Assembly (NCBI RefSeq): GCF_002744755.1
Contig: NZ_KZ319290.1
Span: 319,750 to 383,749, forward strand
From: Leeuwenhoekiella nanhaiensis
Lineage (GTDB): Bacteria; Bacteroidota; Bacteroidia; Flavobacteriales; Flavobacteriaceae
Length of the DNA: 64,000 bases
Reading direction: 5' to 3'
Part shown: positions 56,156-63,722 of the stretch, in pieces
How the letters are laid out: each line of letters starts with the position of its first letter
Position numbering within the stretch: position 1 is the first letter of the stretch
Program-made: the position numbers and the translations under genes
Notes under the pieces: generated by a model
What the model was told of the DNA's origin: nothing
Database searches by the model: none
What the model saw: only the letters and a program-made list of their open reading frames with translations

Positions 56156-58957
56156 TTGTTGAAATTTCTACATTTCATTTGTTGCTTTATACTCTTTCTG
56201 CCTCCCGTGATAGGGCAGGAGCTGCCTCCTGTGCAAAACTTTTCGCCTGAAGAATATGCCGCAGAGAATCAAAACTGGGCAATCACTCAGGGAGCTAATG
56301 ATTTTATTTACGTAGCAAACAATTCGGGTTTGCTGGAATATGATGGCGCGCGCTGGCGTATTTACGATTCTCCTAATAAAACCATTATAAGAGCCGTTGA
56401 GACCAGTGGGGATCGCATTTATACAGGGGCTTATATGGAATTTGGCTACTGGGAGCCCGATCAAAAGGGACTTCTAGAGTATCATTCGTTAAGCCGAAAA
56501 GAAGAACTGCAACTGGTAGAAGATGAACAGTTCTGGAATATTTTTACCATTGATAATTTGGTTTTATTTCAGTCTTTAAACCGAATTTACAGCTACGATA
56601 CACAGAATCAGAGTCTTGATATCTTTGCGCCGGAAGGGAACATTACTAAAGCATTCCGGATTGATAAATCGGTTTATTTTCAACTGGAAGGGCAGGGCCT
56701 TTTTCAGCTTCAGGAAGGAAAAGCAGTATTGATTTCAGAGGCTGAATTTTTAAAGAATGACGTTCTGGTTGGTTTTTTTAAAGAGGAAAGCCGATTTGTA
56801 TTGATTACTGCACGATCCGGATTTTTTAGTCTTAAAAATGATGAAGTAATAAATATTCCCGTGCCTCAAAATGTTCAGGAGGTAGTAATTTATAGTTGCC
56901 AGAAGCTTAGGGACGGTTCACTGATGCTGGGTACCATCTCCTCAGGGCTTATGCATTTAGATCAAAACTTCACTTTCGATTACGTGCTGAATCAGCAGCG
57001 TGGTATCAGTAATAATACAGTGCTTTGTATTAAAGAAGATCGGGATGCTAACGTATGGTTGGGGCTTGACAATGGTATAAGTGTTATTAACAGCAGTACG
57101 GCTTTTAAAGTTTTTAGGGATAATGCCGGTAAGTTGGGCTCAGTCTATACCGCTGCCCGTATGGGAGACTATTTATACTTAGGTACCAATCAGGGATTAT
57201 TTTACCGCACTATTCAGGATAAAGCAAATAATTACCAATTAATTTCCGGAACCAAGGGGCAGGTATGGAGTCTTAATAAACTGGGAGATGATCTGTTTTG
57301 TGGTCATCACGAAGGTACTTTTTTAGTAGATAAGGCGAGCGTAAGGCAAATTGCAAAAACACCGGGAACCTGGCAGATTCAATGGCTTGATAAGGCTCAG
57401 GGGCTTGCCATTCAGGGAAATTACAGTGGTCTTTATGTCTTGCAAAATACTGCAAACGGCTGGGAGCTGCGCAATAAGATTACCGGCTTTGACATTTCGA
57501 GTCGGTATTTTGGTCTGGGACCCAATCAGACAATTTATGTGAGTCACGAGTACAAAGGAGTTTTTAAAGTTTCGGTAAACGAAAATTTTACACAGGTTCG
57601 CAATTACAAATTAATCCCTGAATTACCGCCTGCAGAAAAAGCAGGTATTACCTCTTATAAAAATCGCTTGTTTTACGTGAGCAATGCGGGTGTTTATGAA
57701 CTCAATGAACAGACCGAAACTTTTCAGATGGACATTCTGCTAACTAAGAGTTTTTTTGAAACTGGTAGTTATACTACGGGTAAACTTACCTATGACCCCG
57801 AGAATGATCGTTTGTGGGCTTTCAATTCACAGGAAATTAGTTATCTCAAGCCGGGTATTCTCGCGGATGAGTTTGAAATTAACCGTTTTGCCCTACCTGC
57901 GAAAGCACGTAGAGATATTCCGGGATTTGAGAATATTACCCCGGTAGGCACCAATGTCTATTTGCTGGGCAATTCTACCGGATATACGCTTTTTGACCTC
58001 AACGAGGCTCGTGAGGAAGCATTTACCATTCGATTACGGAGTATCGAGAACGGTACCCGGGACGGAAAGTTGCAATACATCAATCAGAATCTAGAAGAGA
58101 CATTTGCTAACGAGCAGTCTAATTTTCGGTTTATGTTTAGCGTTCCGCAATATGATAAATTTCGTGCTGTGGTCTATCAGTACCGTCTAAAGGGCTATTA
58201 CGAGGAGTGGTCTGCCTGGTCACCCGAAGCTCAGGTTTCTTATGAGAACCTTCCTTATGGAGACTATGTTTTTGAAGTGCGGGCGCGCATTGGTGAAGCC
58301 TATTCTGAGAATACGCTCAGCTATCCGTTTAGAATCAAACGCCCCTGGTATTTATCTATACTGGCCATTGCTTCTTATGTTGTTTTGGGGCTATTGCTCT
58401 TGACAGGAATTCAGATGTATAACCGCCGCCACTACCAGAAACAAAAACAGCGGCTCATCGAGATTAATAACCGTAAAATTGAACTGGCCAATTCTGAAAA
58501 GCAGCGGGAAATTATCAGGCTTGAGAATGAAAAACTTCAGCAGGATGTAGATAGTAAGAGTAGAGAACTCGCTGCCTCTACAATGAATCTGGTTAAGAAA
58601 AATGAGCTGCTGAATACCATTAAAAAGGAATTGGAACAGGCAGAACAAAAAAACACCAAATCGGTTATTAAAATCATAGATAACAATCTGGATCCTAAAA
58701 AAGATTGGGAGTTTTTTAAAGAGGCCTTCAATAATGCTGATAAAGACTTCTTAAAGAAGATCAAACGCCTGCATCCCAAGCTCACTCCTAATGATCTTAA
58801 ACTATGTGCATACCTGCGCTTAAATTTGACTTCCAAAGAAATCGCTCCCTTACTCAACATTTCGGTACGCAGCGTAGAAATTAAAAGATATCGTTTGCGT
58901 AAAAAAATGGATTTAGAGCGTGAAGATGGCCTTGTTGAGTATATACTTTCCATCTAA
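56156..58957 (+). CDS. Membrane-tethered propeller/Y_Y_Y/LuxR-type transcription regulator
   Basis: A 933-aa sensor-regulator starting at TTG 56156 (or TTG 56159). After a signal peptide (FLHFICCFILFLPPVIGQ), about 600 residues form two-component-regulator propeller repeats (ANVWLGLDNGISVIN). The Y_Y_Y domain is at about 658-728 (YQYRLKGYYEEWSAW). One transmembrane helix (about 730-752) and a coiled coil (about 765-845) follow. The C-terminal HTH (about 870-930) has NLTSKEIAPLLNISVRSVEI. There is no histidine kinase H/ATP domain, so signal and DNA binding must be in one polypeptide. It stands just upstream of susC. Confidence 0.88.
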   Translation: MLKFLHFICCFILFLPPVIGQELPPVQNFSPEEYAAENQNWAITQGANDFIYVANNSGLLEYDGARWRIYDSPNKTIIRAVETSGDRIYTGAYMEFGYWEPDQKGLLEYHSLSRKEELQLVEDEQFWNIFTIDNLVLFQSLNRIYSYDTQNQSLDIFAPEGNITKAFRIDKSVYFQLEGQGLFQLQEGKAVLISEAEFLKNDVLVGFFKEESRFVLITARSGFFSLKNDEVINIPVPQNVQEVVIYSCQKLRDGSLMLGTISSGLMHLDQNFTFDYVLNQQRGISNNTVLCIKEDRDANVWLGLDNGISVINSSTAFKVFRDNAGKLGSVYTAARMGDYLYLGTNQGLFYRTIQDKANNYQLISGTKGQVWSLNKLGDDLFCGHHEGTFLVDKASVRQIAKTPGTWQIQWLDKAQGLAIQGNYSGLYVLQNTANGWELRNKITGFDISSRYFGLGPNQTIYVSHEYKGVFKVSVNENFTQVRNYKLIPELPPAEKAGITSYKNRLFYVSNAGVYELNEQTETFQMDILLTKSFFETGSYTTGKLTYDPENDRLWAFNSQEISYLKPGILADEFEINRFALPAKARRDIPGFENITPVGTNVYLLGNSTGYTLFDLNEAREEAFTIRLRSIENGTRDGKLQYINQNLEETFANEQSNFRFMFSVPQYDKFRAVVYQYRLKGYYEEWSAWSPEAQVSYENLPYGDYVFEVRARIGEAYSENTLSYPFRIKRPWYLSILAIASYVVLGLLLLTGIQMYNRRHYQKQKQRLIEINNRKIELANSEKQREIIRLENEKLQQDVDSKSRELAASTMNLVKKNELLNTIKKELEQAEQKNTKSVIKIIDNNLDPKKDWEFFKEAFNNADKDFLKKIKRLHPKLTPNDLKLCAYLRLNLTSKEIAPLLNISVRSVEIKRYRLRKKMDLEREDGLVEYILSI

Positions 58958-58963
58958 TACACC

Positions 58964-59002
58964 TATACAAGTTAGATATACAACTCAACATTACCTATAC
59001 AA
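58964..59002 (+). repeat. Three TATACAA direct repeats between the regulator and susC
   Basis: TATACAA occurs at 58964-58970, 58977-58983 and 58996-59002, with two of the copies extended to ACCTATACAA (58961-58970, 58993-59002) exactly 32 bases apart, about three helical turns. They lie immediately after the regulator stop and 205 bases before susC. The arrangement suggests operator sites for a dimeric LuxR-type protein. Confidence 0.55.
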
Positions 59003-59180
59003 AAAGCTGTAATGTGGTGTTTTTGAACGTTTTTCGATTGCATGTCCTTAATTTTAACATCTGTGCTTAAGCCTTGTAGCGAAAGCGTTTGCGTTGAGTT
59101 TTTCTCAGTTATACCTGTAGATGTTTGACTTGTTGATTTTTTGTAAAGGCAGGTTTTAAGGAATTGTTAATACTTGCGGG

Positions 59181-59188
59181 TAGATTTG
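59181..59188 (+). promoter_or_regulatory. Candidate -7 box for the susCD operon
   Basis: TAGATTTG matches TAnnTTTG and lies 18 bases before the susC ATG. The nearest TTG (59164-59166) is only 14 bases upstream, which may mean a weak -33 that needs an activator. Confidence 0.45.
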
Positions 59189-59206
59189 ATTTCAAATTAA
59201 ACATTT

Positions 59207-62200
59207 ATGAGATCAATATTATCCTTTGTGGTTCTTGTTTTGTTTTCATCGGGGCTTCTTGCACAAACCGGTGACCCAATTCAGGCATCAGGAACAGTGA
59301 CAGATATGACGGGAATGCCACTTCCCGGGGTTAATGTTATTGTAAAAGGAACTTCAAGAGGTACCAGTACAAATTTTGACGGTGAATTTAGCCTCTCGGT
59401 TCCGCAATCAGGCACACTGGTTTTTTCGTATTTGGGTTTTCAACCTAAAGAAGTAGTCGTTACAAGTGCCGGTCCAATCACCGTTCAATTAGTAGAAGAC
59501 GCCAGTGCCTTAGAAGAGGTGGTGGTAATTGGGTACGGTACACAAACCCGTAAAGAAGTTACCGGAGCCGTTGCTGTGGTAGGTTCTGAAACTATCGAAG
59601 AACAGAATCCGGTACGTATAGAACAGGCGCTACAGGGTCGTGTTGCCGGGGTTAACATCAGCTCAACTTCAGGTTCTCCGGGGAGTGCTTCAACCATTAA
59701 CATTAGGGGTATATCTACTAATGGGGATAACCGCCCTCTTATTTTGGTTGATGGGGCAAGAATTGAAGATTTAAGTGTCTTAAATCCAAATGATATTGAA
59801 AGTATCAATATTTTAAAAGATGCCACAGCTGGTATTTATGGGGTTTTAGCAGCAAACGGGGTGATTCTGATTACGACTAAAACCGGTCGTAAAAACAGCG
59901 ATCTTCGTGTAAATGTAGATTCCTATGTAGGCTTGCAGGAAACTACTCGTAAGTTGCCGGTTTTAAACGCTACTGAATATGGCGCAATTATTAATGAAGC
60001 TTTTGTAGCCGGTAATCAGGCTCCGCCATTCCCCAACCTAAGAAATTTAGGTATGGGAACCGACTGGCAGGATCAGGTATTTAGACAAGCCCTACTTTCC
60101 GATGTTAACGCAACAGCTTATGCAGGTGGCGAAAAATCTGCATACTCCATCGGTCTGGGTTATTTAGATCAGGATGGTATCGTTGGCGGCAGCGCAGCAA
60201 ACTTTGAGCGATTTACCGGTCGCGGAAGCTATAGTCTCGATATTACCGATAATCTTAAATTTAAAGCTTCAGGTATTTACACCAATTCAAACCGAAGTAC
60301 CCTGCTTGAAAATGTACTGGGATCGGTACTTTTCAACGCTGTAAATATGGATCCTACCAAGCCGGTTTATGATGCCAACGGTGATTTTACCCTGGCTACC
60401 GGTTTAGGAAACGAGGTGATCAATCCGGTTGCTCAGATAGCCAATACGTTTAATCGTACTCAGGTGGACAAAATAACGGGGAGCGTAGGATTGTCCTATG
60501 AGTTCTTTGATAATTTTAAAATTGAATCGAACTACCAGTTCAACTATTCTGAAGTGCGCAATCGCGCTTTTACACCCTCCGGACTCTTTTACGGAGATGG
60601 TAAGGTGTTTAACAATATAGGGGTTAATCAATATTTTGTAAACGATAGTTTCTTTAGAGATTACACCTGGGATAACTTATTGACCTATACCAATACCATT
60701 GCAGACGATCATAATATCACCGCCCTGCTTGGCACATCTGCCTTCAGAACCAGTGGAGAATTTTACAACTTTACCGGACGTGGTGTACCAGGGAACACCT
60801 TTGCAGAGGCAACACTTAACGGAGCAGAAGAGGTCATTGATGCGCGCGATATTAATGGTCCTGCTGAATTTGATCAACGTTTGCTGTCCTATTTTGCGCG
60901 TCTGCAATATGGATTTAAAGAGAAATACCTGTTTTCAGCATTAGTAAGGCGGGACGGCTCTTCAAATTTTGGACCTGAAAATAAATTTGGAACATTTTAC
61001 TCCTTATCAGGAGGTTGGGTAATAAGTGAAGAAGCCTTTTTTGATAGTGAGCTTGTCAATTTCGCCAAATTTAGAGGGAGTTACGGTAGCTTAGGTAATG
61101 ATAGAATAGGAGCTTTTGGATTTGTATCTACACTTAATGGTGAAGGAACTTATGTTTTTGATAATGAGTTGGTAAACGGTGTTGCCGTAGGAAGACTTTC
61201 AAATCCGGAAATCAAATGGGAAAGCCAAAAGTCTTATGACATAGGGCTTGATTTAGAATTATTCAATTCTGCCGTAAAAATAACAGCAGATTATTTCAAC
61301 AAACGTACTGAAGATCTATTATTAACTCCTCAGGTATCAGGGATATTGGGAGTAAGTGCTCCGGGAGCCGGTGCACCCATTGTAAATGCAGGTAGCGTTG
61401 AAAATAAAGGTTTTGAGTTTTCAATCAACTACAATCAGATCATCAGCGATGATGCCGATTTTAATATTGGTTATAACCTGACTACTCTTAAGAATGAGGT
61501 GCTTCAGGTAGGTAATGAAAGTGGTTTTATACCCGGCGGTGCTTTTGGTTTTGGCCAGGAGGCTCCAGCACGTATGAAGGCCGGTTTCCCAATAGGTTAC
61601 TTCTACGGTTTACAAACCAACGGTATTTTCCAAACTCAGGCAGAAGTTGATGCACACGCTACACAGGCAAATGCAGTGCCGGGAGACTTACGCTATGTTG
61701 ACCAAAATGGCGACGGAGTTATTGACGGGGACGACCGTATAAATATTGGTGACCCAATCCCGGATGTTACTATGGGACTTAATTTAGGTTTCAATTATAA
61801 GAACTTTGACTTTACGGCTTATGCCTATGCGTCAATAGGTAATGATATTGTAAGGGCTTACGACCGTAATCAAAACCTGACCAATAAAACCAACTATGTT
61901 TTAAACCGTTGGATTGGTCCCGGTTCTACAGATACCTATCCTCGTGTGACTATTGGGCCTAACTCAAACCTGCTGTTTTCTGATTTTTATGTGGAAGATG
62001 GTTCGTATTTGAGATTACAAAACGTGCAGTTGGGATATAGTTTAGGAAGTGATGTTATAGAGCAGTTGGGAATTAGCAAATTGCGTTTTTACGTGGCTGT
62101 CGCTAATGCCTTTACACTTACCGAATATCAGGGCTTTGATCCTTCTGCATCTTCAGGAGCTCCTATTGGAGGTGGTATTGATCAGGGATTCTACCCGGTA

Positions 62201-62239
62201 CCACGCATCTATACAGCCGGACTTAACTTCAAATTTTAA
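59207..62239 (+). CDS. SusC/RagA-family TonB-dependent outer membrane receptor
   Basis: A 1,010-aa receptor. The signal peptide ends at LLAQ. The carboxypeptidase D regulatory-like domain spans about 28-95 (ASGTVTDMTGMPLPGVNVIVKGTSRGTSTN). The TonB box-like LEEVVVIGYGTQ at about 101-112 precedes the plug (VTGAVAVV.., LQGRVAGVNI, NIRGIST). The rest is the 22-strand barrel with extracellular loops, ending in LNFKF. With SusD it takes up oligosaccharides across the outer membrane, powered by TonB. It is the first gene of a PUL, 10 bases before the SusD ATG. Confidence 0.95.
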   Translation: MRSILSFVVLVLFSSGLLAQTGDPIQASGTVTDMTGMPLPGVNVIVKGTSRGTSTNFDGEFSLSVPQSGTLVFSYLGFQPKEVVVTSAGPITVQLVEDASALEEVVVIGYGTQTRKEVTGAVAVVGSETIEEQNPVRIEQALQGRVAGVNISSTSGSPGSASTINIRGISTNGDNRPLILVDGARIEDLSVLNPNDIESINILKDATAGIYGVLAANGVILITTKTGRKNSDLRVNVDSYVGLQETTRKLPVLNATEYGAIINEAFVAGNQAPPFPNLRNLGMGTDWQDQVFRQALLSDVNATAYAGGEKSAYSIGLGYLDQDGIVGGSAANFERFTGRGSYSLDITDNLKFKASGIYTNSNRSTLLENVLGSVLFNAVNMDPTKPVYDANGDFTLATGLGNEVINPVAQIANTFNRTQVDKITGSVGLSYEFFDNFKIESNYQFNYSEVRNRAFTPSGLFYGDGKVFNNIGVNQYFVNDSFFRDYTWDNLLTYTNTIADDHNITALLGTSAFRTSGEFYNFTGRGVPGNTFAEATLNGAEEVIDARDINGPAEFDQRLLSYFARLQYGFKEKYLFSALVRRDGSSNFGPENKFGTFYSLSGGWVISEEAFFDSELVNFAKFRGSYGSLGNDRIGAFGFVSTLNGEGTYVFDNELVNGVAVGRLSNPEIKWESQKSYDIGLDLELFNSAVKITADYFNKRTEDLLLTPQVSGILGVSAPGAGAPIVNAGSVENKGFEFSINYNQIISDDADFNIGYNLTTLKNEVLQVGNESGFIPGGAFGFGQEAPARMKAGFPIGYFYGLQTNGIFQTQAEVDAHATQANAVPGDLRYVDQNGDGVIDGDDRINIGDPIPDVTMGLNLGFNYKNFDFTAYAYASIGNDIVRAYDRNQNLTNKTNYVLNRWIGPGSTDTYPRVTIGPNSNLLFSDFYVEDGSYLRLQNVQLGYSLGSDVIEQLGISKLRFYVAVANAFTLTEYQGFDPSASSGAPIGGGIDQGFYPVPRIYTAGLNFKF

Positions 62240-62249
62240 AAGAAGAGCG

Positions 62250-63722
62250 ATGAAAACTAAAAACATATATAAAATACTAATTGGGTGTTTTACATCATTG
62301 GCCCTGCTTTCCTGCGGTGACGATTTTGTAGACGTAGATCCTATAAACACAAACTCTGAAGACTATTTCAATACTCCGGAAGAGTATGAACTGGCTTTGG
62401 TAGGTGCCTATGATTTATTACAGGCCACGTATCTGAATGTTATGGTAGGAGAAATTGCTTCCGACAATACCCTTGCGGGTGGTGAAAGCGCTACCGATAC
62501 TCCCGGAATACAGGAGATTGATGATATGACCCATACTCCGGTTAATCAGCAATTGCGGGATATCTGGGGATGGATGTTTAGCGGGGTAAACCGTGCTAAT
62601 TATATTCTGGAGTTTCAGGATAAAATTGATTTTGAAGGCAAAAATGAAATCATTGCTCAGGCCCGTTTTTTAAGAGCCTATTACTATTTTGAATTGGTGA
62701 AATGGTTTGGTGATGTGCCGCTCGCTGTTGATCGTAGATTGCTGTTTGGAGATCAGTTTAGTGTAGATCGCACTCCGGCTTCAGAAGTGTATGCTCAGAT
62801 TGAGCAGGACTTGATTTTTGCTGCCGACAACCTGCCTGCTACTCAGGCTCAGGAAGGACGTATCACGAGTGGAGCTGCCCGTGCGCTTTTAGGCAAAGCT
62901 TACCTGTATCAGGACAAATTTACCGAAGCAGCTAACGCGCTTGATCAGGTGATCGCAGGGCCTTATGATTTGCTTGATGATTATTCGATTTTATTTCTTC
63001 AGGAAGGCGAAAACAGCGTGGAGTCTGTGTTTGAAGTACAGTATACCGATAAGGAAGGGGCTGGTTTTGGATGCTTACAGTGTAGTGAAGGTAACGTAGC
63101 TGTAGGATTTAATGGTATCCGTAATTATTCAGGTCCCGAATTTGATAGCGGTTTTAGTTTTAACGTCCCCGTTGCCGAAGCTTACAATGCTTTTGAACCT
63201 GGAGATACCCGTCAGGATAATGCGATTTTAGATATCGAAGCCTTTGCGGCACGTACCGGAGCAACCTATAATGAAGGTTACGAGCATACGGGTTATTTCA
63301 ACCGTAAATACTTGCCACGTAAAGGTGATGCTAATATAGGTGATGCAAACCTGACGAACCCAAACAATTATCGGTCTATTCGTTTTGCAGACGTATTGCT
63401 TATGGCTGCAGAAGCGCATAATCGTAAGGCGAATCCCAACGATGTTCTGGCCCAGGAATATTTAAACCGCGTAAGACGCAGAGCTTTTGGCGATCTGGAC
63501 CACGATATCGTGGCAACCGGTGCGGCATTAACGGAGTTTATCTATGCCGAGCGCAGACTAGAGCTGGTAGGTGAAGGACATCGTTTCTTCGACCTGGTTC
63601 GTACCGGTCGTGCGGCAGATGAAATACCCGGCTTTACACCTAATAAAAACGAATTATTCCCCATCCCGTCAATCGAGATTGAATTGGCCGGAAACCGATG
63701 GGAACAAAATCAAGGATACTAA
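62250..63722 (+). CDS. SusD/RagB-family glycan-binding lipoprotein
   Basis: I start at ATG 62250 (490 aa); the open frame to 62106 overlaps susC and adds unrelated residues. The signal peptide ends with LALLSCGDDF, where the lipobox Cys follows. The fold has TPR-like helices: ARFLRAYYYFELVKWFGDVPL, RITSGAARALLGKAYLYQDKFTEA, IRFADVLLMAAEAHNRKANP and ERRLELVGEGHRFFDLVRTG are the family signatures. It is the surface lid of the SusC transporter and binds the polysaccharide. The next gene starts 18 bases later. Confidence 0.95.
   Translation: MKTKNIYKILIGCFTSLALLSCGDDFVDVDPINTNSEDYFNTPEEYELALVGAYDLLQATYLNVMVGEIASDNTLAGGESATDTPGIQEIDDMTHTPVNQQLRDIWGWMFSGVNRANYILEFQDKIDFEGKNEIIAQARFLRAYYYFELVKWFGDVPLAVDRRLLFGDQFSVDRTPASEVYAQIEQDLIFAADNLPATQAQEGRITSGAARALLGKAYLYQDKFTEAANALDQVIAGPYDLLDDYSILFLQEGENSVESVFEVQYTDKEGAGFGCLQCSEGNVAVGFNGIRNYSGPEFDSGFSFNVPVAEAYNAFEPGDTRQDNAILDIEAFAARTGATYNEGYEHTGYFNRKYLPRKGDANIGDANLTNPNNYRSIRFADVLLMAAEAHNRKANPNDVLAQEYLNRVRRRAFGDLDHDIVATGAALTEFIYAERRLELVGEGHRFFDLVRTGRAADEIPGFTPNKNELFPIPSIEIELAGNRWEQNQGY

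Follow-up and report, generated by a model that had tools for sequence, protein, structure and literature searches.

HTCS regulators have a Y_Y_Y-type periplasmic sensor. The response regulators DosR, LiaR, VraR and NarL are soluble proteins, and NarL/LuxR-type dimers mostly bind inverted half-sites. The predicted operators of the Bacteroides HTCS are direct repeats with a spacing of ~21 bp, located upstream of the target genes (PMC3878776). The SusR boxes are two predicted sites that form a direct repeat, 67 or 77 bp apart, and the DNA-binding domain of SusR (BT3705) has been described as unlike known ones (PMC3878776). In the passage of the source that mentions the regulator, the first gene of the Muricauda lutaonensis laminarin locus is annotated LuxR (PMC13188888).

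The window analyzed here, a stretch of 64 kb from the Leeuwenhoekiella nanhaiensis genome, carries on the + strand a regulator gene (56156–58957), a gene for a susC-like TonB-dependent receptor with Plug and CarbopepD_reg_2 domains (59207–62239) and a susD-like gene with SusD_RagB and SusD-like_3 domains (62250–63722), the start of which was set at an internal ATG (MKTKNIYK). The genes downstream of the regulator are susC, susD, PKD, three GH16, GH2-like and CBM4. This gene content, SusC/SusD together with GH16 and other beta-glucan-active genes, is that of a laminarin utilisation locus, and we infer that laminarin is the substrate because the downstream genes fit it. The DNA between the regulator and susC contains two arrays of a 9-bp unit, A and B. 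Judged by sequence comparison, arrays A and B together probably constitute the operator by which the adjacent membrane-anchored Y_Y_Y/LuxR-type regulator activates the laminarin susC locus (probability of about 0.85).

The regulator comprises a sensor region, a Y_Y_Y domain (Pfam, 3.8e-9), one putative transmembrane segment, a coiled coil and a C-terminal LuxR/GerE-type HTH. The Y_Y_Y domain, the hydrophobic segment, the coiled coil and the HTH are all present in one polypeptide sequence, from which the membrane topology is predicted. Y_Y_Y is the sole Pfam match at E 0.001, and no kinase domain, receiver domain or AraC-type HTH was found in the regulator. The C-terminus matches GerE (3e-4) and Sigma70_r4_2 (5e-5), both under the curated Pfam cut-off. 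The AlphaFold model of the HTH has a pLDDT of 87 and its top structural matches are all of the NarL/LuxR type; superposition on the DosR, LiaR and VraR domains yields Z scores of 8–9 and an rmsd of ~2 over ~62 residues. The structural match of the model thus assigns the C-terminus to the GerE-fold HTH of LuxR/GerE-type regulators.

The repeat unit was defined by comparing the DNA 3' of the stop codons of 84 orthologues of the regulator. It is 9 bp long, ACC(T/A)(C/A)(A/T)ACA, and array A contains three copies on the + strand at offsets 0, 21 and 32: unit 1 at 58961–58969 (ACCTATACA), unit 2 at 58982–58990 (AACTCAACA) and unit 3, 11 bp after unit 2, at 58993–59001 (again ACCTATACA). A 22-mer matrix spanning two 9-bp units with an 11-bp period was built from the orthologous loci (shuffle maximum 12.7), and the 22-mer at 58982–59003 scores 29.2. 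Array A reaches a score of at least 13 in 78 of the 84 loci, mostly 22–26 nt 3' of the regulator stop codon; the preliminary description of this DNA had named a lack of repeats at orthologous loci as grounds for giving up its proposal. The third unit, 21 bp upstream of the pair, is weaker and is recognized by column conservation across the loci (columns -21 to -13 from unit 2). Array A is visible with low scores at two loci (L100 and L104), and is missing from four, those that lack a candidate target gene directly after the regulator. The orthologous loci are related and their counts are not independent, yet most of the proteins are 38–60% identical and the spacers have diverged.

Array B consists of the same unit, ACCnnwACA, on the opposite strand with the same 11-bp period (59130–59150). 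Unit 1 (GCCTTTACA) occupies positions 59142–59150 and unit 2 (AAATCAACA), 11 bp away, positions 59131–59139, both on the - strand; the minus-strand consensus is ACCTCWACA-AA-AAAYATACA. Each of the 80 loci with a candidate target gene after the regulator has array B, always inverted, at scores of at least 13.5 (shuffle maximum 9.3). The array B of the window scores 20.1 and is the sole strong match in the 64 kb, yet it is among the weaker ones across the loci. Thirty bp after array B lies the -7 box of a Bacteroidota sigma-A promoter (TAGATTTG, 59181–59188, + strand), which conforms to TAnnTTTG. Its TAnnTT is conserved and keeps a fixed spacing to array B (30 bp in 64 of the 79 loci); a TTTT at 59154–59157 (+ strand; columns +25 to +28 from array B) is conserved between array B and the box. 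A scan for sigma-70-type promoters found none, as expected in Bacteroidota. The -7 box has been placed at -12 to -5 (PMC9723704). On this basis susC transcription is predicted to start at ~59193, and array A spans ~-232 to -190 (the pair -211 to -190) and array B ~-64 to -43 relative to that start.

The distance between arrays A and B changes stepwise among the loci, with values near 112, 122, 135, 146, 156 and 171 bp. The deduplicated distances exhibit a period of ~11–12 bp (R 0.60 versus 0.12 for a simple null model). The best period is ~12 bp and not 10.5, so that helical phasing is not clean and a single helical phase for the A–B distance was dropped. The periodicity favors a face-of-helix constraint with bridging of the arrays, with looping itself as a hypothesis. 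A LacI-type palindrome, CGAAAGCGTTTGCG, occupies positions 59080–59093 between the arrays; its core is invariant in eight Leeuwenhoekiella loci and the exact sequence occurs once in the genome. Other genera carry palindromes resembling TTACAA..TTGTAA just 3' of array A. A common palindrome class between the arrays was considered and dropped, as the forms are genus-specific only. The inter-array palindrome is possibly the site of a second regulator.

The exact array A pattern was searched for in 299 genomes of the family, and 7 kb around the matches were inspected. It occurs 81 times in 72 genomes, versus 11 matches to a reversed control pattern. Array B follows downstream at 73 of the 81 distinct sites (the raw counts, 75 of 83, included two sites in overlapping stretches), and all 73 have a -7 box at 29–31 bp. 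Random positions in the scanned loci reach the array B score in 2.4% of cases, approximately what the true sites alone would yield. Relaxing the array A pattern by one mismatch in the L. nanhaiensis genome gave a noise-dominated result (48 matches versus 33 for the control), and no further strong array sites were found across ~19 kb downstream in the L. nanhaiensis locus. The majority of the exact sites lie after the regulator gene. The others, about two dozen, precede genes for proteins with type IX secretion tails, CBM4/9 proteins, and SusC-like or GH2-like genes, often some 8–30 kb from the regulator and in one genome (G166) on another contig. Flavobacterium loci contain a second site, which lies ~200 bp ahead of the gene that precedes the regulator. 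The arrays therefore track target promoters, not the place where the regulator gene ends. The operator-linked secreted proteins at L196, L197, L198, L204, L213, L223 and L265 have type IX secretion tails and start with MKKITLLF or a similar sequence; they are candidate laminarin-binding or laminarin-degrading proteins.

This distribution bears on the role of array A. Array B could activate while array A serves as a repression or autoregulation site, for instance within a loop that represses in the absence of sugar. The position of array A far upstream, and the inverted orientation of A and B at stepwise distances as in repressing loops, would suit such an arrangement. However, array A also accompanies array B at the promoters not adjacent to the regulator gene, which leaves nothing to autoregulate there, and the nearest relative in function, SusR, has been described as an activator (PMC3878776). 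We regard a repressing array A as unlikely.

Arrays and regulator also occur together across genomes. Orthologues of the regulator (E below 1e-160) are encoded in 160 of the 299 genomes and in 70 of the 72 with array A; the two exceptions lack array B. The exact array B has 100 matches in 81 genomes (3 for the control), and all 81 encode the regulator (p ~1e-28, from lists compared by eye and with a significance inflated by phylogenetic relatedness). Of 13 Leeuwenhoekiella genomes, 12 have a single exact array B each, and it lies at the regulator locus. The thirteenth genome (G009) retains a regulator remnant of ~100 residues with no array and no adjacent susC; this locus (L271) is decayed.

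A paralogous Y_Y_Y/LuxR regulator, ~30% identical, precedes another susC-like gene in Leeuwenhoekiella (in L. nanhaiensis at L019 and L127, contig C3, ~216 kb). Its putative operator contains forward units and two inverted ones with 11-bp spacing, at identical offsets in 10 of 11 Leeuwenhoekiella copies, with one inverted unit altered in one copy. The unit is TACATCA, the arrays are fixed relative to a TAnnTT box, and the recognition helices of the two proteins differ accordingly (SVRSVEIKRYRLRKKM versus SVRGVEIHRYRLRKKL). The recurrence of the layout with a different unit suggests that a two-array operator is likely a trait of the regulator class. Separately, the DNA before the GH2-like gene of the laminarin locus (L126:9700-9945) contains TTATAACGTTTGCGAAGTGTTTTGAT, which resembles the inter-array palindrome and part of the paralogue's array and hints at cross-regulation.

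A different transcription factor, co-inherited with these loci, might bind the arrays while the LuxR-type neighbor acts elsewhere. Co-occurrence is not proof of binding, and a second conserved palindrome does lie between the arrays. Nonetheless, the co-occurrence of array B with the regulator is perfect, array B was lost together with the regulator in G009, and a separate version of the arrays accompanies the paralogous regulator, which leaves a separate factor quite improbable. The proposal that the operator belongs to the regulator encoded directly upstream is, by this comparative evidence, very likely correct.

The regulator transcript might instead end in an RNA element or terminator formed by the repeats, since array A begins a few bases past the stop codon and ACATTAC..GTAATGT can pair ahead of a TTTTT. 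The fold energy is, however, no better than that of shuffled sequences (z 0.23), Rfam gives no match, array B keeps a fixed position relative to the -7 box, and the recurrence of the arrays at promoters without an upstream regulator contradicts this reading, which we consider highly improbable.

The preliminary description had proposed three copies of TATACAA as the operator sites. All three are present on the + strand (58964, 58977 and 58996), as are the 10-mer ACCTATACAA, found twice at a distance of 32 bp (58961 and 58993), and the -7 box that it reported (59181). TATACAA is nevertheless not the repeat unit, as the unit conserved among orthologous loci is ACCnnwACA with 11-bp and 21-bp spacing. 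Of the three copies, that at 58977–58983 (+ strand) is incidental: it is no part of the operator, no conserved columns occur at its offset, the two closest relatives (L047 and L046) have TTTAGAA and TTTTGAA in its place, and it is missing even in the 90%-identical sister locus. The site list was also incomplete, since the unit at 58982 and the inverted array at 59130–59150 had been overlooked. Taken singly, TATACAA shows no enrichment in the window (9 copies versus 10.65 expected). It is the sole 7-mer in the 64 kb with three non-overlapping copies inside 45 bp, and when the 249-bp region was dinucleotide-shuffled 3000 times, only 7 of the shuffles gave a triple of any 7-mer inside 45 bp. The preliminary description had also asked whether TATACAA is equally common elsewhere; the 4.37-Mb genome contains three close pairs, two of them here. 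Neither this check nor that on the orthologous loci spoke against the proposal. A chance cluster of an A+T-rich 7-mer would agree with the lack of enrichment but is contradicted by the rarity in shuffles and the conservation in ~80 loci, and its probability is negligible. The first reading was right in outline and wrong in detail, and its view of the region as the operator of an activator-type susC promoter is backed by the comparative evidence.

If A and B are the operator of the membrane-anchored regulator, a laminarin-derived oligosaccharide in the periplasm would cause the regulator to dimerize or multimerize, which would place its LuxR-type HTH domains on the two tandem arrays, the three forward units of A and the two inverted units of B. 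The susC promoter lacks a good -33 element and would be served by protein at array B, which could contact RNA polymerase given the fixed 30 bp to the -7 box, and so activate susC. Array A would act as a distal helper site; that it is inverted relative to B and spaced from it in steps suggests bridging or looping. A broader generalization is tentative and, in our estimate, rather doubtful: that a large Bacteroidota class of membrane-anchored Y_Y_Y/LuxR regulators would use a distal three-unit array and an inverted proximal array, activating by membrane DNA looping, with the stepwise spacing requiring the membrane-bound regulator to bridge both arrays.

The regulator is predicted to resemble the SusR-like regulators of Bacteroides in being a membrane protein with a periplasmic sensor and a cytoplasmic DNA-binding domain. 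A neighboring susCD locus that is probably activated and a direct-repeat operator, itself predicted for SusR, are further likenesses. It differs in its LuxR/GerE-like HTH, in two opposed arrays and in unit spacings of 11 and 21 bp rather than the 67- or 77-bp centre spacing of the SusR direct repeat. With the HTCS it has in common a Y_Y_Y-type sensor, direct-repeat sites and the 21-bp step. A tandem at 11 bp, a second array in inverted orientation and an HTH of the LuxR type set it apart, and the kinase domain, receiver domain and AraC-type HTH that HTCS possess were not found in this regulator. For HTCS, no operator made up of two inverted arrays is described (PMC3878776). The modeled C-terminal four-helix HTH fold is that of the LuxR/NarL/FixJ-type regulators DosR, LiaR, VraR and NarL, but here it is fused to a membrane sensor and its putative sites form tandem direct repeats. 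LuxR/GerE-type proteins usually, though not universally, bind inverted half-sites roughly one turn apart; in both arrays the units repeat directly, with an 11-bp period. It is therefore doubtful that a LuxR-type dimer should be expected to sit on direct repeats, as the preliminary description stated; the tandem repeats look like the sites predicted for SusR and HTCS (PMC3878776). The Muricauda lutaonensis laminarin locus with its LuxR-annotated first gene is of the same kind, and the passage mentioning that regulator describes no operator for it (PMC13188888). No published operator or binding site for the present regulator, or two-array layout, was found in the open-licence literature. The function is ordinary, that of a local activator of a sugar-uptake locus, and the layout is unusual and very well conserved, recurring in about eighty related bacteria. 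With a precise operator at a fixed promoter distance, regulons become predictable from the sequence of flavobacterial genomes, secreted proteins that lack annotation are tied to laminarin use, and short DNA probes and reporters offer a direct test of the mechanism.
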